In this document: positions 37,173-63,824 of the stretch, piece by piece | Layout: each line of letters begins with the position of its first letter | How positions within the stretch are numbered: the first letter of the stretch is position 1 | DNA from: a virus | Length of the DNA stretch: 64,000 nucleotides | IMG/VR virus record: IMGVR_UViG_3300032046_000013 | Span: 1 to 64,000 of that record | Strand: one strand, 5' to 3' | Translations under genes and position numbers: made by a program | The notes under the pieces: generated by a model | What the model saw: the letters and a program-made list of their open reading frames with translations, nothing else | Database searches by the model: none | What the model was told of the DNA's origin: nothing

Positions 37173-37980
37173 GCTCTGCCTCCCCATCGAGTTGCTGGCC
37201 CAGCCGCTCAATCAAATGCGCCCAAAACATTTTCCCATGTTCTGTCCGATCTTCAGCGGCGATCTTCCACAACGCACCATAGAGCCGATCCCCGGCGATC
37301 CAGAGTCCGACCGGGGTTTGCCTCAGACCGGATGACGCGAGTTTGGCCAAGATTTTGGCGTTCTGATCCGCTCCCTCCGAGGTGGTGATGATAGAATTTT
37401 CAAAGAACACTACGCCCCGGTTCAGTTCCACCGCTTTTTTTTGTTGGAAATTCGTCGACGCATCGCAGATCATGGTGCCGCGTTTCGGAGGTCTGATGTG
37501 ATCGCAGAAGTCCTGGGGCATGGCCGCGACGTTCCCACAGACGTTGCATACCGAGGTCGTGCACCAGGCTCCCATCGAAGTGTCGGTGATCCGCTGTTCC
37601 TGTATGGCCCGTTCGATCCCCGGTCGCCGGGACTCCGCGAGTTTCCGGTCCACGGCCATCAGGACCTTGACGTAATTCTGAGGCGTGTAAACCGCATCCG
37701 GGTTTGACCCGATCTTCAGGGATTCGTCCCAGTTCTCGTGATCCAGGCAGGCCCAGGAATCGACGAAAGTTCGGTAAGCAAGTTTCAGTTCTGCCCGCTC
37801 GAAGGCATCGTGATTTTCGTTCGAGCCGAAATCTTCCCAAGCTGACACTGCCCAGCTCTCAATATAGAAATTTTCTTCTGGATTCAGGGAAAAGCGAATA
37901 GCACTTTCTTTGAGTAGGCCCTGGACTTCGGCCTCGGGCCGGAGCCATAATTGATGGGATCGGGCAAATTTGAAAAACAT
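37156..37980 (-). CDS. Head-assembly protein with Cys/His knuckle
   Basis: A 274-residue protein. The middle has YTPQNYVKVLMAVDRKLAE, then TDTSMGAWCTTSVCNVCGNV and CDHIRP, a cysteine/histidine cluster that probably binds zinc. I have seen this combination in head-region genes of large phages, but the function is not established as far as I know. It overlaps the scaffold-like gene by 17 bases and the preceding gene by 1. A role in prohead assembly is inferred. Confidence 0.5.
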   Translation of the reverse strand: MFFKFARSHQLWLRPEAEVQGLLKESAIRFSLNPEENFYIESWAVSAWEDFGSNENHDAFERAELKLAYRTFVDSWACLDHENWDESLKIGSNPDAVYTPQNYVKVLMAVDRKLAESRRPGIERAIQEQRITDTSMGAWCTTSVCNVCGNVAAMPQDFCDHIRPPKRGTMICDASTNFQQKKAVELNRGVVFFENSIITTSEGADQNAKILAKLASSGLRQTPVGLWIAGDRLYGALWKIAAEDRTEHGKMFWAHLIERLGQQLDGEAEHGGEC

Positions 37981-44044: not shown

Positions 44045-45112
44045 TCATTTCCACTCAGGCAGTGTGTAATCCCGAATCTGCGTTTCCTCCGCATGGCCCA
44101 TAAGTTTTTGAAGTTCTCGAATACACCCGCCGATGACTTCCCGAAGCACATCCGCATCTTCGCTTTGAGTTTGGGCGAACAACTCCCCTACCGCGTCTTC
44201 CAGTAAGTCCAGATACCCTTCTTCATCCATCTGGGAGATTTGCCTGATTTGCAGTATCTCAGCCCGGGCTTGGACATCGCCCTGGGGATCGATCTCGGGC
44301 AGAGGTTCGGCTGGAACTTCTTTGATCAGCGCGGCTTCCATATCCCGGACTCCCTGGCTCATCATTACAGCCTGGTCCGTTCCCAGGACCTCGAAGCCTG
44401 GACACCGTTCATCCTCAAATAGCAGGTCATTTTCCTGGAACCTGTTCAGGAAGTCCCTAACATCCGCATCATCAGCCGAGAGACATCCGATCTTGCCTGA
44501 TGGCGCATAATCCGCGTTCTTGCAATTTGAACAGTAGGAAGGCAGTTCAGACCCCGTATAATACTGATCCAATTCGTCCACGATAAGCATGGCTTGGAGA
44601 CGTCCGCCAAGACGCTGATACACGTCCAGGGCTGAGCCAGACCCCCGGAAGGCCACCCTACGGCAGGCTTCGACCCACAGAGGTAGATTCTGGACGACCT
44701 CGGGCAGGCCGTAGAGCACCAGACCAGCGGCCACGGACTTCACGTGGTCAGGATATGCCATCCCGGTTTTGAGCGTATCATTGCGGATCGCCTCCATCAC
44801 GGCCTCCCATCCAGGAAAAGGTGGAAAACTCCGGTCATCAAGATACAAATTAGCGAACAGCTTGGGATCACCGAAGTTGACTAGCGAATTCTCGTTGATC
44901 TCATCGTAGGCATACCCACCCTCGTCCAGGAACTTCCGTGCCTGCTCCAATCGTTCTCCGCTCCGGCACGTCCAGATGATGATGTGCCATCCCGCGTCTC
45001 TCAGGGCTTGCAGACCCTCCTGGGCCAGAGGCAGAGGTTCCCCGATCTGCGGATACCGTTGTTCGACTATCGTGTTGTCGAAATCAACCGCAATTATCTT
45101 TGGCGTCGGCAT
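44045..45112 (-). CDS. HAD-type phosphatase fused to an unknown C-terminal region
   Basis: A 355-residue protein. Residues 1-110 are a HAD hydrolase: IIAVDFDNTIVE with nucleophile Asp and DxD-type partner, WTCRSGERL, and YLDDRSF as the last acidic motif. This resembles phage 5'(3')-nucleotidase/polynucleotide phosphatase domains. The remaining about 240 residues are helical with a possible Cys knuckle (YCSNCKNAD). It closes the minus-strand portal block and overlaps the preceding small gene by 29 bases. Confidence 0.75.
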   Translation of the reverse strand: MPTPKIIAVDFDNTIVEQRYPQIGEPLPLAQEGLQALRDAGWHIIIWTCRSGERLEQARKFLDEGGYAYDEINENSLVNFGDPKLFANLYLDDRSFPPFPGWEAVMEAIRNDTLKTGMAYPDHVKSVAAGLVLYGLPEVVQNLPLWVEACRRVAFRGSGSALDVYQRLGGRLQAMLIVDELDQYYTGSELPSYCSNCKNADYAPSGKIGCLSADDADVRDFLNRFQENDLLFEDERCPGFEVLGTDQAVMMSQGVRDMEAALIKEVPAEPLPEIDPQGDVQARAEILQIRQISQMDEEGYLDLLEDAVGELFAQTQSEDADVLREVIGGCIRELQKLMGHAEETQIRDYTLPEWK

Positions 45113-48726: not shown

Positions 48727-51700
48727 CTACTGGGTAAAACGCGCAGACTGTTTGACCTTACCTTTTGGAGTCTGGGGCTTGCCACTCTGCTCCCATACTT
48801 CTTTGGCGATCTGATAGACTTCGATGCCTTGCTTGGATAGACCCTGGAAAAGTCCTTCATGGAACTGCTCCATCAGATCGTAATACCGATCTAGCTGTTC
48901 CTCGAAGCCTTCCTCGCCCGCCACAAGGTCTCCAGCCAAGTCCATGACCTGCTGACTGTAAGTATCGAGATCGGCATTGCGGCCCAGATATTCCAGCCAC
49001 GCCTGCACGAGGTCTTCGGAATGGTTGGCATATCGCAGTTGGCCAGTCATTTCTTCCCGAACCTGATCGGCGGAAACGGCTATGCCAGCTTCGGCGGCTT
49101 GGACACCCACATCGTAGGCCCCGCCACCAGCCCCGATTTTCCGCCTTGATGTTTTCTCCGGGGCCTGGGGTTTCCTTGGAGTCTTTCCCTTTGGACGCTC
49201 GGGCACCAGTTGGCGAGCCAATTTCCAAACATTGATCCCGCGTTCGCCTAATCCCGCGTCCACGCCTTCCCAAAAACCTTCTGAGATTTCCAGGTGATCC
49301 TCCACCATATCTTCGCCTTCGCCTTCGGATTGCTCTACAACCTTCCGCAGATGCGACGCAAATTGGTCCGTGCTCTCCCATGATTGTTGCCAGTGTTGAA
49401 CCAAGCTCTCCGCGTCATCGCCCGGCCCCATCTTATCCAAGTCCTGCTCCATCTGCTTAAGGATGTCGTCGGCAGATTCAAACATCCAGGCATCTTGAGC
49501 CGCATGAAGACCGGCCTGATATGCGAGATTCCGAATATCCGGAGTGCCCCCGACTTTCCGCCTTGATGTTTTCTCCGGGGCCTGGGGTTCGCCTTCGGTG
49601 TCGGGTTCGACAGCGAAGAAATTGAGCGTGACATCAAGCAGTTGCTGGCCGATTCCCGAAACGCCTTCTTTTAATTTCCCCTCATCCGCATAGGCACCCA
49701 AGTCATACGGGGGCATCGCGCCGAATCTCAGTGGCTCACCGATACCTTCTTCGCTTGATTCGATTATGGCATTGTAAAGCGGGGACTCAGGCGTAGCATC
49801 GAAACTCCCGCTCAAGTCTCCATCATGATCATGACCTTCATTTTGCGCCCAGTTCACAACGGTTTTCAGCCATGCTTCGGTGTTTTCCTCCAATAGGGCG
49901 ACATCCTGATTCAATTGGTCCCAAGCCGCGTCGTCGAGAGTGATCCCCCGTTCCTCGGCGTTCTGCTCGATCTCAAATTGATCCGTGGTGCTGATCGAGA
50001 ATCCACCTTTGATCGGCCCCTGGTAGTCGTCTGGGAGAGTGGCGGTCTTGCGCTGGCCCATTTTTTCTAATTCATTCCAGTCGCTTTCGCTACTGAGATA
50101 TTCCTCTCGCTCTTGGTCTTCATCCCACTCGATTACCACGCCTTCGATGCCATTGTAGGGTGGGTTGACCTCGATAACTCTCCCGATTCGACCTGACTGA
50201 TCTTTCACTTCATCTCCAAGCCTGAATGGATTCACGGCAGTCTTGCGCTGGCCTTCCACTTCATTTCCGCCACCCGAGTAGGTATCAATGGAATCCCGGA
50301 CTTCCTGGATTTCCTGCGCGACTTCGCCCGTCGCTTCCGCCGCCACGGAGTTCACGAGGTTCTCCACCATTTCCAGTTCATCCGGTTCAAAGCCCCGCAA
50401 GTCCTCGCCATCGAGGATGCGCTGGATATTCTGGATCACATCGGTCTGGCCCCGGTCGGATTTTTGGGTCAACAGCGTCGCCAGTGGCCCGAACTTGGCC
50501 CCGACCTTGCGCCGACCTTCCTTGCGCGGCTTGACCTCGCCCCCGCCTTTCAGGTCTGGCGACTTCATCGTCCGGTCATCCACCAGATTCTTCTCCGGGT
50601 CCTGACCCCTCCGCTTGTATTCTTCTCTGAGCAGATTCAGTTCCCCCTGTTCGGTAATGGTCAGGGACTTCGCGGCTTCCCTCTGTTCGAGCCGTCCGAT
50701 TGACTGAGCCAAGACTTTCGAGGGAATGCTCTGGAAGTGCTTGGTGTAATGGTCGGCCTCCTTTTTCGTCGGTATGATCTCGGCCAGCACCTGATCCCGG
50801 AACAGGTCCTCCGCTGTGTCGCGCAGGGTAATGCCCGTGACGTGGGTTGAGGCGGCCCGGAACAGGCCCCCGATGCCCTGGGTGGCCATAATGCCTTCGG
50901 GCGTCTGGTCCCCGCGTTTGAGGGCTTCCCGAAGGTATTCCATGTCCCCCCGGCGTTCCCGTTCCAGGGCTTGCCAGACCTGATGGGCGTTTTTCTCGAA
51001 ATACCGATCAAAGACTTGGCGATCCGACTGCATGGCCTGGAGACGACGGCGCATCCCCTCGGCTTCGTGACCCGTGACTTCGGTGATGCGGATGGTAATA
51101 TGACTCAAGGTTCCACCTTCGCCAGAATTATCCGCCATACCCAAGGCTCCACCTTCGGCTATCGCAACCTGGTTTCCTGACTGATCTGAGATTCCGAAAT
51201 ACAGGGAACTCGTGAAATTCACCCAACCCTGATTCGGGTCCACTTCATCGACCTCGGTGTTGATTCCATCTGGGGCGAATTCCGCATGGTAAGTGCCTTG
51301 GCCGAACTCCCGATCCAGAATGAAGTTCACGTTCTCCTCGATCAGATCGTTACGACCCCGACTATCCTCAAACTCCGCATCGATGTCTTCCAGTTCAAAC
51401 TCCGCACCGAGTCCGAGCGAGAAGTCGAAGCCTTCCTCCAACTTGGCCCCGTGCTTGCGCATCCCCATTTTTCCGCCCTCGACTTTCTCCAGATTGCCAT
51501 CTCCGAGGTTAACCCCGATAGCCCCCAAGGCCCATGTTCCCTTCCGACCCGTTGGTTGCAGTTCCTCATCCAGATATTCAACCGTGGCCACGAAACTATC
51601 CCAGCGGGCTTCGGGAATATCAGCCCGACTGCCCGTGTCGGTGATATTGGTGATCCTGAATGACTTAAAGCCTGATCCTTGAAAAACATCACCGACCCGA

Positions 51701-53343
51701 ATCTGCTCGATCAACTGGTTATAATCTGGTTTCCTGGCCCCTTTCTTACCCCCAGGCTGACGGTCCGCCATCGGACGGCCCGAGCTGGAATTGGGCCGGC
51801 AGCCGAAAATATCGCCTCCGCCGGCGTCCATCCCCTCATCCTCTGCCGTGCTCGCGGTCTGGTCAGCCACTGCAACCGCATGTTTGCATTTCCGGCCATG
51901 CTCACCGGCGGGACAGGAACAGGCCCATCGCCGCAACTCGCCGTCCATTCCGAGAAACCGGACCTCATAGACGTTGCCGGAATCGCTGTGCACCGCCCAG
52001 GTTTCGTTTTCGCCGTTTTTTTCGATTTTCACCACGTGCTCGAAACCTGGGGGAGTAACCGAGAATTTGAGACTGGCCTGGAGTTTCTTTCCGCCCCGGG
52101 CCAGCAGTTGTTCAATCGCACTCTGGGGATCGTCGCCAAGTTTATCGGTCTTGGTGTCGCCGCCCCACCGATTGGGTTGGGAGATTTTCACCGGCCTCAG
52201 CACATGGGTCGGTCCATATTCGTAATATCCGACCGAACCATCGCCCTGGACTATCGCCACTTCTCCGTCAGGCATCTGGTAGGCTCCATGAACCGTAGCT
52301 TGTTTGCGTTGGCCCATGTTGATCGTGCCTGATCCGACTCGCTTGCCGCCCTGCCTCACCAATTCCTGTATGGCTTTGCGCGGACCACCGAAATCATCAA
52401 TCGGAGTATCGGTATGTTGCATCGTCTTGGCATCATAATATCCGACTGATCCGTCACCGCTTACTCTGGCGAGTTCCCCGTTGGGCATCAGATACATCCC
52501 GTAAGTCGAGCCTTGCTTGCTCCAGGCAGTCCGCAGAATGCGCGTGGCCTCTTTCGCTTCCTCGGCTTCCGGTTCGGGTTTCTTCGACTTCTCGCTCGGA
52601 CTCGGTTTGGAATCCGAATTCTCCCCAAACGCTTCCGCCGTGGCCTCATCGATCAGTTTCTGACCATCCAGACCCTGGGAATCTGCGACCTCCACCAGTT
52701 TCTCCTGATGACTCTGCTCATCCAGGATGATCTCGTCCACGAGGCCCTCGGCCTCCCCGTTTTCATCCGAGGTCAGGGACTCCGCGAGTTCCTGATATTC
52801 GCCTGGAGCCTTCACTTCATCGACCATCGCATCCTCAATCAGGTCTTTCAATTCGGACTCCCCGGGTTCCGTTTCCTCGGTTTCCGGTGTCCGTTCCTCT
52901 TCCGCATGTTTCCGCATTTTCTTCTCTCCTTGTTTCGTCCCATAACCCGCGCTTTCCAGGACATCCAGAGCCGCCCGTGAACCGATGCTCCGCAAGATCA
53001 GCGTATAAACTCCCGCATTCTCCGTATCGTAATTCAACTGGGCTTCCAGAATCGGCACGGCCCGATCTCCAAATTGCACGACAGTCCGATATGCGCCCGA
53101 TTTCAGGCTGGCATCCGGGCTTTCAATAACTTCACGCAATAAGTCGGTGATCGTTTCCTCAATATCGGGACGGCGAGATCGTTTGGGCACATCATATCCT
53201 TCACGTCGCGCCATGTCATAAGCAATAGCCGCCGCTTGTTCCTGGGATTTGCCTTCGCCAATCAATTTTTTGATCTTTTGGCTGATCCACGCTTGAGCCT
53301 CGTCCGTGAGTTTGGCCCCGATCTTACGCACTTCGTTTCTCAT
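48727..53343 (-). CDS. Giant multi-module protein (1538 residues)
   Basis: The modules can be told apart by recurring short basic motifs. They include: an N-terminal KLIGEGKSQEQAAAIAYDMA segment known from many phage proteins; an acidic part; two MPDG modules (STYGMYLMPNG..., TVHGAYQMPDG...) with GDGSVGYY; a SWIM-type zinc finger (CSCPAGEHGRKCKHA, about 473-487); an SH3/KOW-like module (FRLGDEVKDQSGRIGRVIEV); and two related C-terminal helical domains of about 120 residues. Boundaries carry RKQA, RKTA, RKVGA, RKIGA or RKHGA. It lies between terminase-side genes and portal. Whether it is a processed polyprotein or a single chain is unknown. Confidence 0.7.
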   Translation of the reverse strand: MRNEVRKIGAKLTDEAQAWISQKIKKLIGEGKSQEQAAAIAYDMARREGYDVPKRSRRPDIEETITDLLREVIESPDASLKSGAYRTVVQFGDRAVPILEAQLNYDTENAGVYTLILRSIGSRAALDVLESAGYGTKQGEKKMRKHAEEERTPETEETEPGESELKDLIEDAMVDEVKAPGEYQELAESLTSDENGEAEGLVDEIILDEQSHQEKLVEVADSQGLDGQKLIDEATAEAFGENSDSKPSPSEKSKKPEPEAEEAKEATRILRTAWSKQGSTYGMYLMPNGELARVSGDGSVGYYDAKTMQHTDTPIDDFGGPRKAIQELVRQGGKRVGSGTINMGQRKQATVHGAYQMPDGEVAIVQGDGSVGYYEYGPTHVLRPVKISQPNRWGGDTKTDKLGDDPQSAIEQLLARGGKKLQASLKFSVTPPGFEHVVKIEKNGENETWAVHSDSGNVYEVRFLGMDGELRRWACSCPAGEHGRKCKHAVAVADQTASTAEDEGMDAGGGDIFGCRPNSSSGRPMADRQPGGKKGARKPDYNQLIEQIRVGDVFQGSGFKSFRITNITDTGSRADIPEARWDSFVATVEYLDEELQPTGRKGTWALGAIGVNLGDGNLEKVEGGKMGMRKHGAKLEEGFDFSLGLGAEFELEDIDAEFEDSRGRNDLIEENVNFILDREFGQGTYHAEFAPDGINTEVDEVDPNQGWVNFTSSLYFGISDQSGNQVAIAEGGALGMADNSGEGGTLSHITIRITEVTGHEAEGMRRRLQAMQSDRQVFDRYFEKNAHQVWQALERERRGDMEYLREALKRGDQTPEGIMATQGIGGLFRAASTHVTGITLRDTAEDLFRDQVLAEIIPTKKEADHYTKHFQSIPSKVLAQSIGRLEQREAAKSLTITEQGELNLLREEYKRRGQDPEKNLVDDRTMKSPDLKGGGEVKPRKEGRRKVGAKFGPLATLLTQKSDRGQTDVIQNIQRILDGEDLRGFEPDELEMVENLVNSVAAEATGEVAQEIQEVRDSIDTYSGGGNEVEGQRKTAVNPFRLGDEVKDQSGRIGRVIEVNPPYNGIEGVVIEWDEDQEREEYLSSESDWNELEKMGQRKTATLPDDYQGPIKGGFSISTTDQFEIEQNAEERGITLDDAAWDQLNQDVALLEENTEAWLKTVVNWAQNEGHDHDGDLSGSFDATPESPLYNAIIESSEEGIGEPLRFGAMPPYDLGAYADEGKLKEGVSGIGQQLLDVTLNFFAVEPDTEGEPQAPEKTSRRKVGGTPDIRNLAYQAGLHAAQDAWMFESADDILKQMEQDLDKMGPGDDAESLVQHWQQSWESTDQFASHLRKVVEQSEGEGEDMVEDHLEISEGFWEGVDAGLGERGINVWKLARQLVPERPKGKTPRKPQAPEKTSRRKIGAGGGAYDVGVQAAEAGIAVSADQVREEMTGQLRYANHSEDLVQAWLEYLGRNADLDTYSQQVMDLAGDLVAGEEGFEEQLDRYYDLMEQFHEGLFQGLSKQGIEVYQIAKEVWEQSGKPQTPKGKVKQSARFTQ

Positions 53344-54833
53344 TTTTTTCTCCCCGGATAGGGTTCTTTCGCATAGGTCGGATCGTCCTGAGCGTTTTCA
53401 TTTTCCCGCTCTTCCCATGCTTGCTGATCTTCGGCCTGCAGTTCGGCCACGGCTTGATCGAATTTCCGATTGAACTCTATGGGATTATTCTCCTGAAACA
53501 GGTAATGCAATTCTTTCTCCGCATTACCGAGTGGTTGCTTGTCGATTGTGATCTCACGGGCATTCACTGCGGATTCCAGCGCATCATAAATGGCTTGTCG
53601 CAACTGACCTTCGACATCGGAGATCGTTCTGAGTTCATCCCAGAGTGCGTCAGCAGGATTTACCTCAGTCCCGTGCTTGGCCAGCGTTCCGTATCCGCCT
53701 TGGCCCCGCTCTTCCACCGTTTCTTTGACCTGACCGGACTGGCCGACCTGGGATTCCGACTTCTCGTTATTTTCCAGTTCTTTTAACGAATTGAGAAATG
53801 CCTCGGTGCCCAAGGTCTGCACGTGCTCCATATAGGACTGGGCTAAATCAGGCGCGACCTCCGCCGCAATTTGGCTTACCAAATCCCAATCAATTTCTTG
53901 ACCTTTGGGAACTCCGTCCTCCACTTCCGACTGGCGTAGTTCCGGCAGATGCTCGGCCATCCGCTGATTGATCTCCCAGAAGTCCTGGTCCTCATCGGCT
54001 TGGTCAGTCTGTCCGATCTTCGATAACGATGGTAATTTCCGGGGGTCCAGTGCCCGGCGTCCTGCTGATTCAAACTGGACGATCAGCACGTTCTCCTCGG
54101 GATGAACTTGGAGAACCTGACCCCGACCATAGCGGCGATAGAATACTTCATCACCTGGGTGGAAGTCCGCGATCCGAACGGCGGTTTTCTCCATCCGTCC
54201 CACGGTCTCCTGACCTTGGCCGATGTCCAGGATATAGGCCCGAAGCCGATCCGTGTCCATTCGACGTGCGGATTCGACCTGAGAGTCCCCGATCCCCGCC
54301 ATTGCGCACTTCGATTTCAGATAATCCACTAGTTGCGAGTGCGAGGCTGATCCAAGTCTCGCATGATCGGCCTGGATCAATGCTGAAAGTTTTTTCATCT
54401 TCCGCTCCCTTATCCCATAATCCAACTTCGTCCGCATCGGATTTGGAAATTTACTCGCTGTCGGAATGAACGACGCGACTTCTGCTGGATCGCCCCGGAG
54501 TATCGACTGGCCATCCAGCACGACATCTAGCTGTGCAATCAGATTATCCCATTGGACATCGATCAATGCACCCTGGGGATGAACCTTCGGAGCCAGGGAG
54601 ATCACGGTTCCGCCCAGCCGATCATACGTCCTAGTCACTCGGTCGCCCCGGAACACATCGAACGGCCCGCCCCGGAGAATCGCTGGAACCATCACATCAT
54701 GGGCCTGCATATCCTCAGACCGGGGACCGAAACGGTTGATCGTGCTGTGTTTAATAGTCGCCACGTGCCATATCTTCCCGAGTCGGAGGATTCTCTTCAT
54801 GGTTTCTGATCTCGTCTTCGAGTTTCCGCTCAT
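53340..54833 (-). CDS. Multi-module protein, 497 residues
   Basis: Start ATG 54833 or ATG 54800; it overlaps the preceding gene by 83 bases. The N-terminal 120 residues have two SH3-like stretches (FDVFRGDRVTRTYDRLGG). NPMRTKLDY at 131-139 matches NPVRTKLDY of the major capsid protein. After EKTA a KOW-like module follows (FHPGDEVFYRRYGRGQVLQV), related to one in the 1538-residue protein. The C-terminal half is acidic and helical. Probably a head-associated protein; function unknown. Confidence 0.65.
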   Translation of the reverse strand: MSGNSKTRSETMKRILRLGKIWHVATIKHSTINRFGPRSEDMQAHDVMVPAILRGGPFDVFRGDRVTRTYDRLGGTVISLAPKVHPQGALIDVQWDNLIAQLDVVLDGQSILRGDPAEVASFIPTASKFPNPMRTKLDYGIRERKMKKLSALIQADHARLGSASHSQLVDYLKSKCAMAGIGDSQVESARRMDTDRLRAYILDIGQGQETVGRMEKTAVRIADFHPGDEVFYRRYGRGQVLQVHPEENVLIVQFESAGRRALDPRKLPSLSKIGQTDQADEDQDFWEINQRMAEHLPELRQSEVEDGVPKGQEIDWDLVSQIAAEVAPDLAQSYMEHVQTLGTEAFLNSLKELENNEKSESQVGQSGQVKETVEERGQGGYGTLAKHGTEVNPADALWDELRTISDVEGQLRQAIYDALESAVNAREITIDKQPLGNAEKELHYLFQENNPIEFNRKFDQAVAELQAEDQQAWEERENENAQDDPTYAKEPYPGRKK

Positions 54834-57800
54834 CTTCCTCAGTCAAGGGAATTTCCTGTCCATCCTCATCGACCAACCGGATACTGTGAATCTCCGTCTC
54901 TGGATGTTCCTCTGGCGAAGTCTCTGTCCGTCTCAGACCCGGACTGAAACTTGTTTGGTAATAAATCGTGGCATCCCGTTCATCCGGTCCCCAGACGGTG
55001 GGTAACGTTTCTTCACCTCCACGTTTGGGTAGGACCTCATCTATCGATGCCCGGACATCCTTGCTCGCTACGGTAGTCAGAGTCATGCCCCCGTGGTCAT
55101 CCAGAATCCAGACATTGGGCCAGAACTGTTGCTGTTCCATGCAAGCCTTGATCGCATCGTCAATGTCCTCAAAGTGGTTTCCCTCCCCGAAAAGGAACTC
55201 ATCAGAGCCGACTTGGACTTCGTAATACCCATCTGGGGTTTGCTCGATGACTTTCTTACCTCCCTGTTCCCATACTTCAGTTTTTCCACCCAAATGTCCA
55301 GTTGATTGGATCACCAGATCGCCGTCCTCGGGTTCCTGCGGTTCGTCCATCGGCTCGGCTTCCAACTCTTCCAAGGTTCCTTGTTTGGGTAGGACCTCAT
55401 CTTCGGAAAAGTCAATGTGCTTGATCATGCCCGTGCCACCGCATTCGGGACATCCAGATTCCCTGCCCCCAGGAATTTGCCCTTCACCTTGGCAGGTGGG
55501 ACATAGTTCGATTGAGGAAAATTCAGAGCCTCTGCCCGGAGGAACAGCCACTACTTTTGCTTTTCTTTTTTTAAATTCAGCCCATTCCTGTTCCTGCCTC
55601 TGGCTCCAATCCTCGATTTGTTTTTTCTGATATGCCTTATCTATCTTTTTTCCCTTCCAGTTTCCCCGGGGTTTGCTCAGCTCCGATGGTGCGTCTTTGT
55701 CCTGGGCGACTTTCTGGCTACTCGTGGCCAGAGTTCCCAACTGGGCCATCTGATTCTGGAGGTCAGTTGGAGGCCCATAATCCCAATACTTGACCTCGAC
55801 TCCCGGAAACATGACCTTGAAATATTGCTTCGGTTGATTATGTTCCAACTGATAAGGTTCATTTCCATACATGGCCTTGGCCCAAGCGACCCATTGGTAA
55901 GCCGAGAGTTTGGCTTCCTGCTCGGAATCGCGGTGCAGATGGATGGCCCCACTCGGATCGGTCTCAGGAATCTCGAACATCGGATCAGCCCCCTGCTTGG
56001 GCACGGCCCATGGGTCAATCGAAGCGGGTTTCTGACTTGTGCCCTTCACTTCTGGCATGTTCGGTGCAGGAGTCAATGGATCATATTCTCCGCCCTTGAT
56101 CTGTTCTAAGTAATCATCCGCCAGTTCCTGGGCTACGGCTTGGCGCACGGCCTGGGGGAACATCTTGTGCCACGGCTGATCAGGACTTCCGAACTCCTTG
56201 GCGTATTTCTTGGCTCCATTCTCGACCAGATACATCCACAGTTTCGGGGCCAGTGCGTGGTTGTAAGTCTGGTTTTTGAGCCGCCGCTGGATGTTCCGAA
56301 TGATCGGCATGAACTGCTGGTGGTAAAGGTCAGCATCGTTCTCGATGAACAACCGGAGTTCTTGCGCCCCATATTCATCTTTGTCTGGATCGGGAGGCAG
56401 ATCACTCTGCCATTCATTGTAATCCATGCCGAGGACTGGCAATCCCAGTTCTTCGTCCCAGACGCTCAGCTTTTTCATCTTGCTCCCCTTATGAGATTGA
56501 ATAGCGCGTTCCTGTCGTTCGGCATCAGCCTTTGAATCATGGGTGCCCAGCCGTTTCTTTCCGTCATGGGAGTAGAGCACCCACGAGTCGCCTTCTTGGC
56601 GGATGACCGCAGTTTTGGCGGGGGCTATGCTTTCGATTGATTTTTCAATCTGCGTATCCACCTCGAATTCTGTCAACCCGTTTTCGCGGGCCAGTCTTCC
56701 AGCCCACACTTTCGCCACTTCAAACATATCAGTAGATTGTGTAGTGCCAGCTATATTGGTTCCGTGAAACTTTTTAGGATCATCAACCACCTTGACTTGT
56801 AGTTGCCCACGCCTCGGCTGGCATACTGCTACCCAATACATTTGTCGTGCAGTCTTTCTCATCGCTAGCACTGGGGCGAACATCGGGAGATATAACGTGT
56901 CCTCGATCTCCTGGGCCAACACGGTTTCGCCCATGACTTTCAGCCGTTCGAGCAGGGCCATGAACCAGGCTTTGCCCCGTTCCAGATATTTACGGACGAA
57001 CGCCTCGGCCCCAGTGTCGGTCGGCTGGGATTCGGTCTCAATCACCTGCTCGATCTGGGTGGGCAGGGGAAAGTCCGACATCGCCTCCTTGGCCTGGATC
57101 GGCGTAATATCGATCTCGTCCGCCTGGACATAGCACTCGGACTGGAGGAACTTCGCAGCCTCGCGCACGGACCTCAGAGTCGGAAAGTCCGCGATTATAA
57201 CTTTCTGGCCCTCGGTCACCAGCCGTCCACCGTGGGCGAGACAGAAAGACCGAGCGTCCCGGAAAGATGCCTGGACGAACCCGGGCATCTGAGACCACCC
57301 GGCCTTTACGAGGTTCGGGAACGTCATCCTGTAATGTTCAGTCTGCGCGAGCGTCGGCATGGTCGGCTCCTTCAGTTTTAGCGGCTTCCCGTCAAAGATC
57401 GGACTGGGTTCCAACGTCCCGTCCTCGCGGGTGTGAAATCCCGCAGGTGTGCGGGGTTTCAGGTATGAGGGCGAAGTGATGTCACGTTTCTTTCCACCCT
57501 GTTTGAGTATGGATAATACCTGTTCCAGCGAATCGGATTCCGGGGAATCCTTGACGATATTAAAATCCTTCGGCTCGTGCTCGTGCGATGTCCGGGCATG
57601 GTCGGAGATGCGGACATCCAGATATTTTTCTTCCTCATCCGTCCCGTCCTTGCGGAAAGTCAGATAGTCGGACTGGGATGACATGGCCCCATACTCATTG
57701 CTCAGTTCCCAGCCCCCGGCATCGGCGGCATCCTTGATCTGATCTTCTACCGAATCCTTCCATTCGTGCCATTCTTCGCGTTCCTGGCACTGTTCGCATA

Positions 57801-57951
57801 ACCGGGATTCGCCTTCCAAGGGCACGGCCTCAGTGTCTATCAGATCGCCGTCATCATCGTAAGTATCGGTGATCTCGGCCTTGACCTGCACCAGATGGTC
57901 ACACTGTTCGCACGGCCACCGGGCATAGTCGGTTCGCGTTTCAGTTCGCAC
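54751..57951 (-). CDS. Giant multi-module protein (1066 residues)
   Basis: Starts at GTG 57951 overlapping the upstream stop (TAGTG). Modules include: two CEQC knuckles (C14-C17 region and about C53-C56); a helical part; MRKTA followed by YWVAVCQPRRGQLQVKVV; AKTA followed by a small module SWVLYSHDGKKRLGTH ending in AERQERAIQSHKG; a helical module; and a DnaJ-type CxxCxGxG pair (CPTCQGEGQ, CPECGGTG, about 817-842). Linkers DEVLPKQG and DEVLPKRG are near-repeats. No enzyme motif seen. Likely a set of small binding domains. Confidence 0.7.
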   Translation of the reverse strand: MRTETRTDYARWPCEQCDHLVQVKAEITDTYDDDGDLIDTEAVPLEGESRLCEQCQEREEWHEWKDSVEDQIKDAADAGGWELSNEYGAMSSQSDYLTFRKDGTDEEEKYLDVRISDHARTSHEHEPKDFNIVKDSPESDSLEQVLSILKQGGKKRDITSPSYLKPRTPAGFHTREDGTLEPSPIFDGKPLKLKEPTMPTLAQTEHYRMTFPNLVKAGWSQMPGFVQASFRDARSFCLAHGGRLVTEGQKVIIADFPTLRSVREAAKFLQSECYVQADEIDITPIQAKEAMSDFPLPTQIEQVIETESQPTDTGAEAFVRKYLERGKAWFMALLERLKVMGETVLAQEIEDTLYLPMFAPVLAMRKTARQMYWVAVCQPRRGQLQVKVVDDPKKFHGTNIAGTTQSTDMFEVAKVWAGRLARENGLTEFEVDTQIEKSIESIAPAKTAVIRQEGDSWVLYSHDGKKRLGTHDSKADAERQERAIQSHKGSKMKKLSVWDEELGLPVLGMDYNEWQSDLPPDPDKDEYGAQELRLFIENDADLYHQQFMPIIRNIQRRLKNQTYNHALAPKLWMYLVENGAKKYAKEFGSPDQPWHKMFPQAVRQAVAQELADDYLEQIKGGEYDPLTPAPNMPEVKGTSQKPASIDPWAVPKQGADPMFEIPETDPSGAIHLHRDSEQEAKLSAYQWVAWAKAMYGNEPYQLEHNQPKQYFKVMFPGVEVKYWDYGPPTDLQNQMAQLGTLATSSQKVAQDKDAPSELSKPRGNWKGKKIDKAYQKKQIEDWSQRQEQEWAEFKKRKAKVVAVPPGRGSEFSSIELCPTCQGEGQIPGGRESGCPECGGTGMIKHIDFSEDEVLPKQGTLEELEAEPMDEPQEPEDGDLVIQSTGHLGGKTEVWEQGGKKVIEQTPDGYYEVQVGSDEFLFGEGNHFEDIDDAIKACMEQQQFWPNVWILDDHGGMTLTTVASKDVRASIDEVLPKRGGEETLPTVWGPDERDATIYYQTSFSPGLRRTETSPEEHPETEIHSIRLVDEDGQEIPLTEEDERKLEDEIRNHEENPPTREDMARGDY

Positions 57952-59882
57952 TATTCCGTGTCCTCGTTCGGATAGGGGACTTGCGATTCGTCCATTGGCT
58001 TTTCAATTCCCATCAAATCATCAAATTCTGAGCGATCACCATGAAGAAAAGCATCTGCAATAAGTTCCAACATGGGTGGTTCCGGTGCGGGTTCATCGAG
58101 TTCCGCGAAGAATTTTTGCATGGTCATGGAGTTGATCTCGGCGTTGGGGTCTTCGGGAATTCTATTCATTGTTTTCTGAAGAAAATTCCAAAGGGCATTG
58201 GCGAGCGATGCAGTTTTCTTCCGTCCTTCCGTCGGCTCCTCGGCCCAGGGGTTGTTGTCAGGCGATTGCCCAGCCGAGGTCTTGCGCGAACCTACGGCTG
58301 AGGAAAACTTGGGCTTCCATCGGTTCTGTCTCTTGGCCGAATCCTTGAGCAGATCGCGGAGCCAACTCTCGAAATTCGATGTCCGCACCACGGCCCCATT
58401 GCGGGTCATCGCGTCCAGTTCGGACTTACCCACGGAGGTCGTGGCCCCGTCCTCCCAGGCGACGATCCACAGAGACTGACCCCGCTCGACCGCTGCATCC
58501 ACGATCTTACCAGTCCTGTAAGGTTCGACCTGCTGGAACTCATCTTCGACATTCCACCGGAACATCCGCGATCCCTGAACAGGCTGTTTCTTCGCGTCCG
58601 CGAGCAACCGCTCGAACACATCCACGGCCCGTTCCAGATTACCCGTGAGTTTCTCCCACAGGCCCTTGATCGAGTCCCAGATCCCGGCGGTCACGATCCG
58701 GCTTTGCTTGGCTGGTTTGACCTTCACCGTTTTGATGTCCGAGATCGAGGTCGTCTGTTTTGTCAGGTCAGCCAGCAGTTTCTCGACCGTCGCTTTTGCT
58801 TCGGCATCCACATGCTTCAGGGCCTCGGCAAGGGCTACGGGATATGTCCGGGCATACGACGGGTTCTCTTTGGTCGTCCATGCCAGTTCGTAAATGTCCT
58901 GGTCCAGCCGGATGCGGAGTTTGCCCACCGACTGCACGGCCTTGAAGATTGCCGGGTAGGCCATGAGTGCATCCCTATCTTTCTTCATCTGCTTGTCCAG
59001 CGTCTCGAACTGGTGCTTGGCCTCGTCGCACTTGGCCAAAGTTTCTTTAAGCGACCGCAGAGACTGCTCGATCTCCGGTGGCAGACCCGCCAGTTCGCCT
59101 TCGGGAACCCGGGCCGGAAGTCCGGGGTCCTCGCCCATAGGCATGTTCTTGTCGGCAGTCTTGCGCGAACCTTGTTTTTTCCATTGACCCGAAGCAATCA
59201 AATTTTCCAACTCAGTTTCTTTCAGCCAATGTTCGCCACCATGAGGGTCTCCCTCGATAGTAACCCAGTAACGCGGTTCCCCCCATTCTTCAGGGCCTTC
59301 GTTGGCCATTTCCTTAATCGTATATCGCTGGCCTTTCGAGTCTGTGAAACTTTCCCCTACTTGATGTAGCATTGTCTCGGATCGTAAGGCACGCTTGGTC
59401 AGTCCGAGTTCCCGGGCCAGCCGATCAGCCCGGCCCAGCTTGCGCGAGGCTTCTTTCCAGGCATGGTCAGGATAGAACAGGTCTTTGGCGTTCGGGTTGT
59501 CCATGGAGTCCCCACGCCAACCGCCGTCCACGCGCTGACCCCGGATTCGGTGAGTATTCCTCTGCTGCTCCGGGGGGTTCCGATAAGATTGGGCGGCATC
59601 GCTCGGAATTAGCGTGAACTCCCGGACTTCCGAATCATCGGCGGTCTTGTCCAGCCCGAGTTCCTGGGCCAGCCGGTCGGCCCGCGATTGTCCCTGCTTG
59701 GGCATCACTTCCTGCTTTTCCTGCCGGTGACCCACGAAGTCCAGTTCATCGGCCTTGAGGTCCCCATGAAAGAATCCCAAGTCCCCATACCGATCAATCT
59801 GCGCCCGCAGGTCATCCCGGGGTTCGCGTTTGGGACTTACCGCATTTTTCATCAACCTAGTCAGATGATCTGCTTCAGACAT
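57951..59882 (-). CDS. Multi-module protein, 643 residues
   Basis: Start ATG 59882 overlaps the end of the preceding gene; the longer frame to 60146 runs inside that gene. Modules are marked by MPKQG, LDKTA, KKQG/RKTA and KKTA. Two related elements SRADRLAQELGLDKTA and GRADRLARELGLTKRA occur 90 residues apart, suggesting duplication. A beta module RYTIKEMANEGPEEWGEPRYW and a long helical part follow. Unknown function; belongs with the neighbouring modular proteins. Confidence 0.7.
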   Translation of the reverse strand: MSEADHLTRLMKNAVSPKREPRDDLRAQIDRYGDLGFFHGDLKADELDFVGHRQEKQEVMPKQGQSRADRLAQELGLDKTADDSEVREFTLIPSDAAQSYRNPPEQQRNTHRIRGQRVDGGWRGDSMDNPNAKDLFYPDHAWKEASRKLGRADRLARELGLTKRALRSETMLHQVGESFTDSKGQRYTIKEMANEGPEEWGEPRYWVTIEGDPHGGEHWLKETELENLIASGQWKKQGSRKTADKNMPMGEDPGLPARVPEGELAGLPPEIEQSLRSLKETLAKCDEAKHQFETLDKQMKKDRDALMAYPAIFKAVQSVGKLRIRLDQDIYELAWTTKENPSYARTYPVALAEALKHVDAEAKATVEKLLADLTKQTTSISDIKTVKVKPAKQSRIVTAGIWDSIKGLWEKLTGNLERAVDVFERLLADAKKQPVQGSRMFRWNVEDEFQQVEPYRTGKIVDAAVERGQSLWIVAWEDGATTSVGKSELDAMTRNGAVVRTSNFESWLRDLLKDSAKRQNRWKPKFSSAVGSRKTSAGQSPDNNPWAEEPTEGRKKTASLANALWNFLQKTMNRIPEDPNAEINSMTMQKFFAELDEPAPEPPMLELIADAFLHGDRSEFDDLMGIEKPMDESQVPYPNEDTE

Positions 59883-60531
59883 CGCTATCTCCTTCATCAT
59901 CAAAAATTTCGCGCAATCGCTCCAACCGCGCTTCGTGCGTTGATCCCTCGGCCAGCCCGAACTCATCCAGGTCGGGATGCACCCTGTCCGTGTAGCTGTT
60001 CCTGAACGTCTGTTCTTCCATGGTGATATCCGAGACGTTGCGTCGAAGTTCCGCATCTTCGCCTGCGGATTCCCGCACATCGGACTGTCCTCGATCATGG
60101 GACGAATCATACGGTGCTCGGGTAAAATCGATGCCGGGAATGGCACCGGAGAAATCGTCCAAGCCGAGGTCTATCTCGTTTTCGTTGAATTCCGGGACTT
60201 CCCCAAACTGCGGATTTTCCCCTCGGGGTATGGGTTGGCCCCGGAATTCCCGTTCTCGGGGTTCAGAATCACGGCGAGGATCAGGGGTTGGCGCGGCTTG
60301 GACGGGTATCCCTTGGCTCGCACCCCAAGTCACAAACCCCGATTGGGGTCCTGCGAGATCAGCCCGAGTAATGCCTTGAAGCAAATCATCCGCTGATATT
60401 CCTGGCTCCGCACCCCACCGTTGTTCGATGATCTGACTTCCGACCTTGATCGTCCGCCGAGGTCCCAAGAATCGGAAACCTTCTCGGGGGTCCTTGCCAC
60501 CGCTACCCTCGCCATCAAATAATTTCCTCAT
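59875..60531 (-). CDS. Acidic, probably disordered head-region protein
   Basis: A 218-residue protein from ATG 60531 (AAGGAG 6 bases ahead; GTG 60534 also possible). It is rich in Glu, Asp, Arg, Gly and Pro with few hydrophobics, and ends in an acidic helix. No domain recognised. It overlaps the next gene by 8 bases. Confidence 0.6.
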   Translation of the reverse strand: MRKLFDGEGSGGKDPREGFRFLGPRRTIKVGSQIIEQRWGAEPGISADDLLQGITRADLAGPQSGFVTWGASQGIPVQAAPTPDPRRDSEPREREFRGQPIPRGENPQFGEVPEFNENEIDLGLDDFSGAIPGIDFTRAPYDSSHDRGQSDVRESAGEDAELRRNVSDITMEEQTFRNSYTDRVHPDLDEFGLAEGSTHEARLERLREIFDDEGDSDV

Positions 60532-60543
60532 CACCCGCTCCTT

Positions 60544-60915
60544 TTATATGCCGATCAGCCGTTCATGCTCCGGCTTTTCCAGATAATGCCGGATCGCCGA
60601 GATCGAGGTCCGAGCCAGTTCGATAGCTCCTTCGTAGGTGGCGTGATCTATCTGATCGCCACTCAGCAAGTGCGGCAACTTCATGTTGATCTGCCACTCC
60701 TGAGTTCGGATACACGCCTGAAGCCATTCCTCGAACTCGGATTTCAGGCCGACTCGATTCTGCTGAGCCGCTTGCAAAAACATTTCGTAGAGGTCCACGA
60801 TATGCTGTTCGTCGTCCCAGTCGTCTGGCCGCAGTTTGCCCGCGAATAGAGTTCGCTTCTCCGCAGGCAGGCCCATGAAGGCCCGGATTTCATCGGGCGA
60901 GACTAGACTGACCAT
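60544..60915 (-). CDS. Small helical protein
   Basis: A 123-residue protein from ATG 60915, with GGAGG 9 bases ahead. It reads VSPDEIRAFMGLPAEKRTLF, LQAAQQNRVGLKSEFEEWL and a helical end. No family recognised. The frame continues upstream into the TnpB relic, but the ribosome binding site decides the start. Confidence 0.6.
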   Translation of the reverse strand: MVSLVSPDEIRAFMGLPAEKRTLFAGKLRPDDWDDEQHIVDLYEMFLQAAQQNRVGLKSEFEEWLQACIRTQEWQINMKLPHLLSGDQIDHATYEGAIELARTSISAIRHYLEKPEHERLIGI

Positions 60916-60949
60916 CGGCTTTTTACCTCCGAACGAAGTGTCCCGACTC

Positions 60950-61115
60950 GATCTGTGATACGCTCCCCCGCATGAATGCGGGGGCATCTCGGATCAGACA
61001 TGGGCCTCACCCGATACGCTTGTCGGTTCTACGATCCGGCTTACTTTTCTGTAACGAAAAGCAGGGGCCGTGATCTCCCCGACCGTCACTTCGGGCGTAA
61101 CCCGCCCTAGTTCGA
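60950..61115 (-). mobile_element. Relic of a third TnpB family: tnpB C-terminus and right-end hairpin
   Basis: On the minus strand the frame ending at TGA 60996-60994 reads LELGRVTPEVTVGEITAPAF, then SRIVEPTSVSGEAHV. This is the typical C-terminal end of one TnpB group (LGR-x-TPE-x-TPVE type). A perfect 9-bp-stem hairpin CCCCCGCAT/ATGCGGGGG follows at 60965-60984, as at IS200/IS605 right ends. The rest of tnpB is missing. The sequence differs from both other TnpB types in the window. It fills the otherwise empty gap 60916-61106. Confidence 0.75.
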
Positions 61116-61223
61116 GAATGATTCATCGAGGTCTGCCTGGGCTTCCCTTGGATACACTGGGGCAAATTTCATTGCCTCATCGTAGTCATGGTCATTTATC
61201 AGCCGTTTTTCTGTCGTTTCCAT
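61107..61223 (-). CDS. Small ORF, 38 residues, possibly cut short by the TnpB relic
   Basis: ATG 61223 lies one base after the previous stop with GGAGAAGGG upstream. It encodes METTEKRLINDHDYDEAMKF and PVYPREAQADLDESF, then stops in the first codons of the TnpB relic (CTA GGG junction). The good start and the coding look suggest a real small gene whose original C-terminus was replaced by the insertion. Confidence 0.55.
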   Translation of the reverse strand: METTEKRLINDHDYDEAMKFAPVYPREAQADLDESFSN

Positions 61224-61224
61224 C

Positions 61225-61797
61225 TCACCCTTCTCCTTTGATCGTCACATGCGTGATTCCCGGACTCGGCTTCGCTACTTCCGATTCCGGGGGCCTGAGC
61301 AATATCCGAAAAGCCGGGACCTGAATCAATGCGCTTTGAATGTCCGTAGGCAATTCATCCCATTGGTCTAGCAACAATTCACGGCTCGGAACTTCACCGA
61401 AAATCGATTGCAGAATCCCGACCCGTTTTTCGATAATCATCTGATCCCATTGCTCTTGCGCTCGGGTTTCTATCGAGGAAATGTGCGCGGTTTTACCGTA
61501 ACTCAACATCGTCGCCCTCTGGTCCCCCATGCCCGGAGACTTCTCTTTTCCAGGCACGGGAAATGACAGTAGGTAATCTATGCGTTTCAAATACTGATCA
61601 ACTGCGATGCAGGAGTTCACGATAGACACCACAGAGACTGCCATCGCCCGTTGGAGTTGGGATAACTGAATATCCTGCTCCCGGTCTGAGGGTAGCAGAT
61701 GTCGGTTCTCCACGGTCTGCCGCAGACGAATCGCCGCATTGCGGATGTCCGCCACGGCTTGGTCGATCTCACTGCGCTTATTTATCTGATCAGCCAT
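61225..61797 (-). CDS. Helical protein of unknown function
   Basis: A 190-residue, mainly helical protein. Residues 1-80 form a long helix pair (AVADIRNAAIRLRQTVENRH); the centre has GKTAHISSIETRAQEQWDQM, including a KTA motif as in the neighbouring modular proteins. ATG 61797 is in TGATG with the upstream stop. No family recognised. Confidence 0.55.
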   Translation of the reverse strand: MADQINKRSEIDQAVADIRNAAIRLRQTVENRHLLPSDREQDIQLSQLQRAMAVSVVSIVNSCIAVDQYLKRIDYLLSFPVPGKEKSPGMGDQRATMLSYGKTAHISSIETRAQEQWDQMIIEKRVGILQSIFGEVPSRELLLDQWDELPTDIQSALIQVPAFRILLRPPESEVAKPSPGITHVTIKGEG

Positions 61798-63824
61798 CAG
61801 AATCCATACTGGGACATCGAAGGCCCCTTGCTCACATTCTCATCCGACGGCTGGATGCCCCGCCGCACGGGTTCGCCCACTTCCAACCCCATCCCGAGTT
61901 CCTGCCGTAGGTCATCATCAGTCTGAACGGGCAATCCCTGGGATTCCGCCTGTTCGACTAACTGATCAACCTCGGACTTCAGTTGGGAAATCTCTTCGGT
62001 CAATGAATCCCTGTGCGTTCGCCATTCCATCACCCGCTCTTTTAATGTATCCATCCGATCCGGCGTCTGGATCACTTGGGGCGTGACCGGGGCCACCATC
62101 TGGGTCAATTGATCCAGAGGCACCAGATCGAAACTCAGGGGGCCTTCCACGACCTGAAATTCCATGCCGTCGCATCCGTCCAGACCGTAACCCTGCTTGG
62201 CGCGGAAGGCGAATATCCCGGGTTCCGTTTCCTCAAAATGTCCGTCTCGAATGCTTCCCATTTTGGACAGGGGGATGCGGTTGGGCAACCGAGCAATAGA
62301 GGCCCGGAATTGCTCGTCCGTAATTCGAGTATCCTCCAGGCCAGCGGTTTTCGCTGTGGCGGGTATTCGGCGCGAGAGCATTCCCTTGTAAAATTCCCGA
62401 TCTTCCGGGGATGAGTAATAGTAGTTCACCACCTCATCCGGGTCCAGGCCCTGATCTCGCGCCCAGTCCAGAATCTGATCTTCATCCCGCCCCTGGATAC
62501 TGAATTGATCGATCTGGTCTTTCACTTCTTCGCTCAGGCGTGAGGTCTTGGCCACGGGTGTCGCGGACTTCCACTCTCCGGTCTCCGGGGTGAACCGATA
62601 CCGCGAGATTTCCCGGTCTCCGTTCGGACCAGAGAACACGGCAATCAGATAGGTCTGCTGGGGCGCAAACTGTCCATGCTGACGAGCCGCGAGCCGAGCC
62701 TGGGCTACGGATGGGAACTGGCCTAGGTCTTCCCCCTCGGGGGTTCGCACGGACACGACTTGGCGGAGTCTCCGCGAGGTCTTGGGCTTCTCATCCAGCG
62801 GCTTATGGCACTTCGGACACTCCTGCTTATCCGGGTCCAAAATCTGGAAATGACAATGCGGACATTCCCGAGGGTCCGGTTCGTTCACCGTATCGGCGTC
62901 CGCCGATGCCTGCTTTTTCCACCTGGGTTCATCCTCGACGTTCGCCGCAAGGTAGCCCATAACATCTTCCTTGAATTCCGAGGCCAGTTCGTGCACCGCT
63001 TCCTGGAGGCTCAGCTTGTCCGCACTCACCTCGTTCACTTGCTCTCTGAGTGCTCGCACCCGATCCAGCATTTCCTGGTGCCCCGAACTCTTGGCCAGGG
63101 CCTCTTGCATGTCCAGCAGGTTCATGCCCAAGTCCCGGAGGTCCTGTTCGAGGCCCTGGCGTTCGGCCCCGACTTCCTCGATTTCCGAAGCAATGGTTCC
63201 GAATGGATCATCTTCACGAAAGGCCGCGAGAGTATCGCCTTCCTCAAGTCTCCACACTTCTCCGGCAGGATCGGGCCATTGATCGAATCGCTGGATTGCC
63301 CCGGACTTGGGTTTGATCTTCGCTTGTTTGTTCATCGCACCTTCATTCCGTTGGGCCTGTTTCATTACTGACCGGACATAGCCTAACTGGAATGGGGACA
63401 CTTCGCCAGTTCTTTCATCTTGCAGATCAATATCCGTCGCAAAAGGATTCCCAGAAGGCTGATATGGTTTCGATACCACCACATAAACATCTTCGCCATC
63501 GATCAATTTATCGCCGACACCAGGCGTTTCCATGAGTCCTTCCCAGTCGTCATCTTCATCTGGCTGTTCATTCACATTCGCACCTTCATTAGATTCATTT
63601 CTCATCGCAGTTTTCCTTCCCGTCGTAGCCGAATCATCGCGTTCCTGGACAATGGCCTGAGTGCCGATATTTGTCAAAAGGTTTTGCCTTGCCACCGCTT
63701 CTTCCTCAGTCTTGAACATCCCGTCCAACATCCAGGAGTTAGCCACAAATTTCATCACCCGGAAACGTAGCATCGGACGATAGTCGATATCTCTCAATAG
63801 CCGATCAGCCGTGCGTGGCCTCAC
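61797..63824 (-). CDS. Multi-module protein, 675 residues
   Basis: Start GTG 63824 overlaps the upstream stop (GTGA). Order of parts: a short N-terminal domain; RKTA; an acidic segment; a small beta module (GDKLIDGEDVYVVVSKPYQP); NKQA; a helical coiled region; KKQA; a zinc ribbon (CPHCHFQI...CPKCHKPL, about 318-338); a module with ARLAARQHGQFAPQQTYLIA; AKTA; and a last part before a C-terminal coiled coil. Function unknown; belongs to the modular series. Confidence 0.7.
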   Translation of the reverse strand: MRPRTADRLLRDIDYRPMLRFRVMKFVANSWMLDGMFKTEEEAVARQNLLTNIGTQAIVQERDDSATTGRKTAMRNESNEGANVNEQPDEDDDWEGLMETPGVGDKLIDGEDVYVVVSKPYQPSGNPFATDIDLQDERTGEVSPFQLGYVRSVMKQAQRNEGAMNKQAKIKPKSGAIQRFDQWPDPAGEVWRLEEGDTLAAFREDDPFGTIASEIEEVGAERQGLEQDLRDLGMNLLDMQEALAKSSGHQEMLDRVRALREQVNEVSADKLSLQEAVHELASEFKEDVMGYLAANVEDEPRWKKQASADADTVNEPDPRECPHCHFQILDPDKQECPKCHKPLDEKPKTSRRLRQVVSVRTPEGEDLGQFPSVAQARLAARQHGQFAPQQTYLIAVFSGPNGDREISRYRFTPETGEWKSATPVAKTSRLSEEVKDQIDQFSIQGRDEDQILDWARDQGLDPDEVVNYYYSSPEDREFYKGMLSRRIPATAKTAGLEDTRITDEQFRASIARLPNRIPLSKMGSIRDGHFEETEPGIFAFRAKQGYGLDGCDGMEFQVVEGPLSFDLVPLDQLTQMVAPVTPQVIQTPDRMDTLKERVMEWRTHRDSLTEEISQLKSEVDQLVEQAESQGLPVQTDDDLRQELGMGLEVGEPVRRGIQPSDENVSKGPSMSQYGF

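Follow-up and report, generated by a model that had tools for sequence, protein, structure and literature searches.

Giant head-cassette proteins of a large phage and its relatives carry a recurrent K/R-x-A/G motif, a probable cut site of the head maturation protease

What are the giant proteins encoded in the head cassette of some large phages, and why does the same short motif recur along them? The question is raised by a 64-kb window, the whole stretch of DNA analysed here, which is part of an 86,227-base IMG/VR virus record (IMGVR_UViG_3300032046_000013). An initial annotation described five large proteins (675, 643, 1066, 497 and 1538 amino acids (aa)) made of small modules with recurrent motifs at their edges. 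All five open reading frames (ORFs) are present with these lengths on the minus strand, and the motif is in excess: the class first noticed, [RPDKA]K[TQ][AG] or RK[VI]GA, occurs 19 times in the five proteins versus 1.6 +/- 1.2 expected (2000 shuffles, maximum 7), and a wider strict class ([KR][TQ]A, K[TQVI]GA or KQG) 30 times versus 6.3 expected from shuffles. The excess is uneven. Strict motifs number 7 (0.9 expected) in the 675-aa giant, 5 (1.1) in the 643-aa giant, counted on the mechanical ORF of 731 aa that starts at a GTG further upstream, 6 (1.4) in the 1066-aa giant and 10 (2.2) in the 1538-aa giant; these four are individually significant and rank at the top by strict motif among the 66 ORFs of the whole record, whereas the count in the 497-aa protein taken alone is not significant. 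The disorder score of the motif flanks shows no difference from that at other K/R positions. We propose that [K/R]-x-[A/G] is the cut site of the phage's own head protease, which would trim the scaffold and the giants, as inner-head polyproteins, at the motifs that separate their modules, and we regard this reading as likely.

The identity of the motif was recovered by a blind scan, in which the counts of all residue pairs with gaps of 1 to 3 were compared, phage by phage, with within-protein shuffles. K-x-A is the most enriched gapped pair in the head proteins of the window (54 versus 30.6), and it ranks first in those of phage G (35 versus 15.4) and Tunturi_5 (48 versus 26.4), while R-x-A ranks first in those of the Gordonia phage Stormageddon (44 versus 23.2). 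KTA is the top tripeptide in Finch (16 versus 1.05), and RTA reaches 9 versus 1.6 in HyRo; in the complete genome of Finch, a Rhodococcus phage, three of the four top-scoring ORFs among 108 are head-cassette giants. Tail proteins from the same phages have K-x-A or R-x-A counts near expectation. The same scan returned LxE and IxE for the T4 core proteins and AxE and ES for the SPN3US propeptides, signals that match the published cut motifs [LI]xE and AxE (PMC5694885, PMC10052503), and found no enrichment of the motif in the negative controls, the N4 virion RNA polymerase and the P1 proteins DarA and DdrB. When residues were shuffled inside 20-residue blocks only, [KR][TQ]A kept a z of 3.4 to 13 in seven phages, and the reversed motif A[TQ][KR] was enriched in none of the seven; the signal is thus one of residue order and not of composition. 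Flanks pooled over 461 sites from the seven phages are enriched for R at P4 (65 versus 25), T at P2 (89 versus 26) and S or A at P1' (62 versus 30 and 83 versus 47), with R/K enrichment at P3' and again at P4, which gives the consensus R-[K/R]-[T/Q]-A|[S/A/G].

How far does the motif extend? The capsid and the protease of the window have homologues in Bacillus phage G, Virus Rctr197k and large Gordonia, Rhodococcus and Mycobacterium phages; the capsid has a further homologue in the Tunturiibacter phage Tunturi_5, and the portal matches G-like loci. The window thus shares the head module of phage G and the Bxz1-like phages, with homologous capsid, protease and portal in a similar, conserved order and the same motif enrichment, and in the relatives large proteins annotated without function likewise lie between the terminase or portal and the capsid. 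The giants of phage G and the Bxz1-like phages show no detectable homology to those of the window, for which no close homologues were found in viral contigs or in any locus retrieved. When the capsids of Tunturi_5 and phage G were used as queries, 80 and 14 IMG/VR loci were retrieved, and in the 59 that were counted K-x-A occurs 1997 times upstream of the capsid gene versus 1133 expected, and 642 times downstream versus 536; it is the top upstream pair in 18 of these 59 loci, which include near-duplicates and so are not independent. The motif, specific to proteins of the head cassette, is found across a broad family of phages with giants that are otherwise unrelated.

A candidate enzyme, overlooked by the initial annotation when it suggested looking for a co-occurring protease gene, is encoded at 37156-37980, adjoining the scaffold gene. 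This 274-aa protein matches phrog_18299, a head maturation protease (5.6e-08), and its H81 and S135 (in SMG) are invariant across 57 homologues, in which a CxxC...CxH signature is conserved too. Confidence in its AlphaFold model is high from about residue 30 to 215, and the best PDB matches of the model are 5jbl (T4 gp21) and 2pbk, the protease of the herpesvirus KSHV. In the actinophages and in Rctr197k the protease domain is fused into a much longer protein.

Several modules run from motif to motif. The MPDG module named in the initial annotation is present in three copies in two proteins, two in the 1538-aa protein and one in the scaffold; KQA or KQG stands before the start of every copy, and two copies also end at a motif (RKQA, NKTG), the edges of the scaffold copy being AKQA and NKTG. 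Locus L020 has two copies of a 54-residue module, the duplication running exactly from AKTA to AKTA, and L019 has a single copy between AKTA and LKVA. A related module follows AKTA in the 1066-aa protein (residues 449-490); its score there holds by construction, because the sequence was in the profile seed, and phrog_3684 (residues 447-491) provides an independent marker of the shared module. In Tunturi_5 gp321 the 2H, ADP-ribosyltransferase (ART) and acetyltransferase domains are set apart by SKAA, PKTA, SKAA, SKAA and LKSA. The 2175-aa Rctr197k polyprotein ends in a KTA-preceded module to which the HAD-like protein of the window is homologous. Of 1511 internal homology breakpoints among 118 large head proteins, 31% have a [KR]xA within five residues, versus 21% of random positions (1.5 times), with little or no excess of the reversed motif, the breakpoints being mutually non-independent. 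The AlphaFold model of the 700-aa giant of L019 is mostly of low confidence, the confident parts being short helical modules only, of which the last begins directly after LKVA.

Among the other module names first given, SWIM in the 1538-aa protein passes the Pfam cut-off (22.1 versus 19.6 bits), while the DnaJ-type and ribbon zinc sites score below threshold and the KOW-like module was not confirmed. The SWIM-coding stretch of 272 bases at 51760-52031 has a 98.9% identical copy at record positions 76534-76805, where the second SWIM lies in frame within a separate 136-aa ORF; judged by this identity, it is a recent module duplication or transfer. We do not count it as motif-to-motif copying, since the edges of the duplicate are close to, not at, motifs. 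A SWIM zinc finger is also found by Pfam in a Gordonia giant (L008, 11101-14022), and a SWIM-like Cys/His pattern is visible by eye in a mycobacteriophage LysM giant (L009, 10720-14733), so that the same kind of module recurs across unrelated giants. A short phrog_2423 domain (ISQKIKKLIGEGKSQEQAAAIAYDMAR) lies right behind the first RKIGA of the 1538-aa protein (window 53200-53295, residues 17-48).

The sites pointed out earlier in the scaffold-like protein (AKQA at 240, LKKTA at 729) and in the capsid (RKIA at 51-54) are present as described, and portal N-termini often carry the motif, as do those of the window (MAKQG-S) and of phage G (MAKQA-A). The suggestion that the capsid is cut at its site fared less well. 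In 50 aligned rows that site reads KLA (30), ALA (10), RLG (6), RLA (2), KIA (1) or ILG (1); its third position is A or G in all, and its first is K or R in 39, but it is ALA in phage G and relatives, and there may be a structural reason for the fixed L and the small residue. In 6wkk, the deposited capsid chain of phage G begins at residue 1, which suggests that the N-terminal arm is not removed in that phage. Capsid cleavage is doubtful, at least for phage G, and because of that phage it was set aside as proof.

Besides the capsid of phage G, several observations weigh against a head protease site. P1 DarB has a moderate motif excess, the blind scan gave no clear K-x-A excess in Rctr197k or in the IMG/VR relative L001, and K-x-A is not enriched in the two G-like loci L099 and L100. 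The match of the protease model to 5jbl has a probability of 0.99 and a TM of 0.55 by target, but an E-value of only 0.04. Autocleavage of the protease at KLA (residues 213-215) was considered and rejected, because in the structure model this KLA lies within a predicted strand. In aligned actinophage orthologues the broad motif is kept at 0.298 versus 0.293 for the reversed control, better retention being seen for the strict form only; since it does no better than its control, we dropped orthologue conservation of the broad motif as main evidence.

Taking both sides together, the motif is very probably a head protease site, and, as judged from their sequences, many giant head proteins of a wide group of large phages are probably divided into small fragments within the shell. 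In the mechanism that we propose, the protease encoded at 37156-37980, of the assemblin/gp21 fold, would recognise the motif with K/R at P3 and A/G at P1, R-[K/R]-[T/Q]-A|[S/A/G] being its best form. During prohead maturation it would cut in trans the scaffold and the giants, which would be cargo of the polyvalent type encoded between terminase and portal. As polyproteins, the giants would allow many small proteins to be brought into the head through a single translation product and, presumably, a single packaging event. The cleavage itself, the named protease as the cutter and the retention of the pieces in the head are what we infer from these data. Ejection of the pieces together with the DNA, as host-takeover or counter-defence factors of the polyvalent type, is more speculative; the idea draws on the enzyme domains in the relatives and on the polyvalent-protein literature.

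Are the giants cargo at all? The motif could be a cut site and the scaffold and giants core proteins degraded to peptides that leave the head, as T4 gp22, a core protein, is degraded to small peptides that exit; the scaffold bears the motif too, with many closely spaced sites. The propeptides of SPN3US are likewise cut several times and mostly exit the head (PMC10052503). We nevertheless hold such disposal to be unlikely, since the giants of the window hold a zinc module and those of relatives hold 2H, ADP-ribosyltransferase and GNAT domains, with the motif between them and mostly not inside, and such domains are unexpected in a disposable core. Somewhat less likely again is that the motif is a packaging signal, a set of basic peptides that, by binding to DNA, portal or scaffold, would draw the giants into the head. 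T4 does have capsid-targeting peptides, and the motif is basic, also in its flanks at P4 and P3', but the small residue at P1, the S/A/G at P1', the P3-x-P1 form found in known head proteases and the occurrence in the scaffold all speak for cutting.

Two further explanations would do without a head protease acting on the motif. The giants could be polyvalent proteins that act uncut, like the N4 virion RNA polymerase, which is packaged whole, or that are cut by a host protease or by metallopeptidase modules of their own, domains which have been proposed as processors of polyvalent proteins (PMC5512222); Tunturi_5 gp321 does have an SprT-like domain. The window giants, however, gave no match to a metallopeptidase domain, and the N4 polymerase is without motif enrichment, so that we consider this improbable. 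The motif excess could also be a by-product of linkers rich in K, A, T and S, or of linkers copied along when modules duplicate. KA-rich linkers are indeed visible within the giants and modules were duplicated together with their edges, but the signal is order-specific under local shuffles and motif reversal, is shared by unrelated giants of different phages, and is absent from the tail proteins and from the N4 and P1 DarA/DdrB controls; of all the alternatives, this one we find hardly credible.

Processed inner-head proteins are in themselves familiar: the head proteases of T4, phiKZ-type phages and SPN3US cut several inner-head proteins, and P1 DarA and DdrB are processed and injected. As in the window, T4 gp21, the phiKZ-type enzymes and SPN3US gp245 are assemblin-like serine proteases adjoining a scaffold gene; they share with the reading proposed here a P3-x-P1 motif, several inner-head substrates and motifs multiplied in propeptides. 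The T4 and SPN3US motifs, [LI]xE and AxE, end in Glu and cutting usually removes a propeptide, whereas in the window the predicted [K/R]-x-[A/G] sites lie between modules along the giants. P1 DarA and DdrB and the T4 Alt and internal proteins are also internal head proteins cut in maturation and ejected with the DNA; they undergo a single cut or few, without a motif-bounded chain of modules, and DarA and DdrB lack KxA enrichment. Polyvalent injected proteins have been described by Iyer et al. 2017, who put forward assemblin-like peptidases as processing enzymes for some of them, although the processing envisaged is mainly by metallopeptidases in cis and few carry C-terminal assemblin-like domains (PMC5512222). 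Such proteins are very large and multidomain (ART, GNAT, 2H, metallopeptidase) and are thought to be injected, and Tunturi_5 gp321 is one of them by Pfam, with ART-PolyVal, 2H and GNAT in one polypeptide. The window giants do not show this multi-domain make-up, only SWIM being above cut-off and no match to a polyvalent family being found, and, unlike the arrangement predicted for the window, a trans-acting head-protease site between modules was not found described for polyvalent proteins. Given all these systems, the initial statement that no phage system of this form had been described was too strong. In the open-licence literature searched we found no paper on K/R-x-A head cleavage and no report of processing of the phage G or Bxz1-like giants. 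Processed and injected inner-head proteins are thus a known concept, and family-wide, multi-site K/R-x-A processing of modular giants, if our reading of the sequences is right, would be new.

The cassette lies on the minus strand in the order giants, portal, HAD-like protein, protease, scaffold-like protein and capsid (Table 1), with a probable decoration protein between the scaffold-like and capsid genes and with terminase pieces just outside the window, ahead of the giants. In L002 (822-5227) the large terminase is, by eye, apparently split into two ORFs, one ATPase-like and one nuclease-like, that flank a 506-aa ORF. The intein-like insertion in the portal ORF covers approximately residues 258-624. 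Elsewhere in the window, a 304-aa plus-strand protein has GAASATG[WR]Q repeats, encoded by 27-base tandem repeats at 39972-40244, and TnpB/IscB-like ORFs are at 268-1386, 26283-27365 and 28307-29509, the last with an HNH family match. A 78-base near-identical repeat shared by 232-309 and 33200-33276 is possibly an element end.

Table 1. Head-cassette genes of the window, with their motifs and modules
Feature	Coordinates	Strand	Motifs, modules and remarks
675-aa giant	61797..63824	-	strict motifs at residues 4 PRTA, 71 RKTA, 155 MKQA, 166 NKQA, 304 KKQA, 492 AKTA, 543 AKQG
190-aa protein	61225..61797	-	single motif GKTA at residue 102; missed by the initial annotation
643-aa giant	57951..59882	-	PKQG, DKTA, KKQG, RKTA, KKTA
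1066-aa giant	54751..57951	-	RKTA, AKTA, VRQA, PKQG and others
497-aa protein	53340..54833	-	EKTA, LRQA
1538-aa giant	48727..53343	-	RKIGA, RTA, KQG, RKQA, RKVGA, RKTA (twice), RRKVG, RKIGA; modules: SWIM, two MPDG, two C-terminal, each after APEKTSRRK[VI]G
Portal protein with intein-like insert	45552..48287	-	portal family matches on either side of the insert
Stand-alone HAD-like protein	44045..45112	-	homology to the last module of the Rctr197k polyprotein
Head maturation protease, candidate enzyme	37156..37980	-	His81/Ser135; CxxCG...CxH zinc-type signature
Scaffold-like protein	34950..37211	-	MKTA, VKTA, AKQA, NKTG, IKQA, KKTA; one MPDG module
Major capsid protein	33463..34404	-	candidate site RKIA at residues 51-54

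What would such processing mean for these phages? With this motif, the place at which the head protease of a large and common group of phages would cut is predicted in concrete, testable terms; the group includes laboratory phages that are easy to grow. If the prediction is true, many hypothetical giant head proteins, hard to annotate within long chains, could be split in silico into functional cargo, and a delivery route for the early host-takeover proteins of these phages would be explained. It is even possible, although we hold this wider proposal somewhat short of probable, that phage G, the Bxz1-like and Tunturi-like phages and the phage of the window all deliver host-takeover cargo as head polyproteins cut by the maturation protease, with R-[KR]-[TQ]-A as a conserved joint into which rapidly exchanged modules would be plugged.

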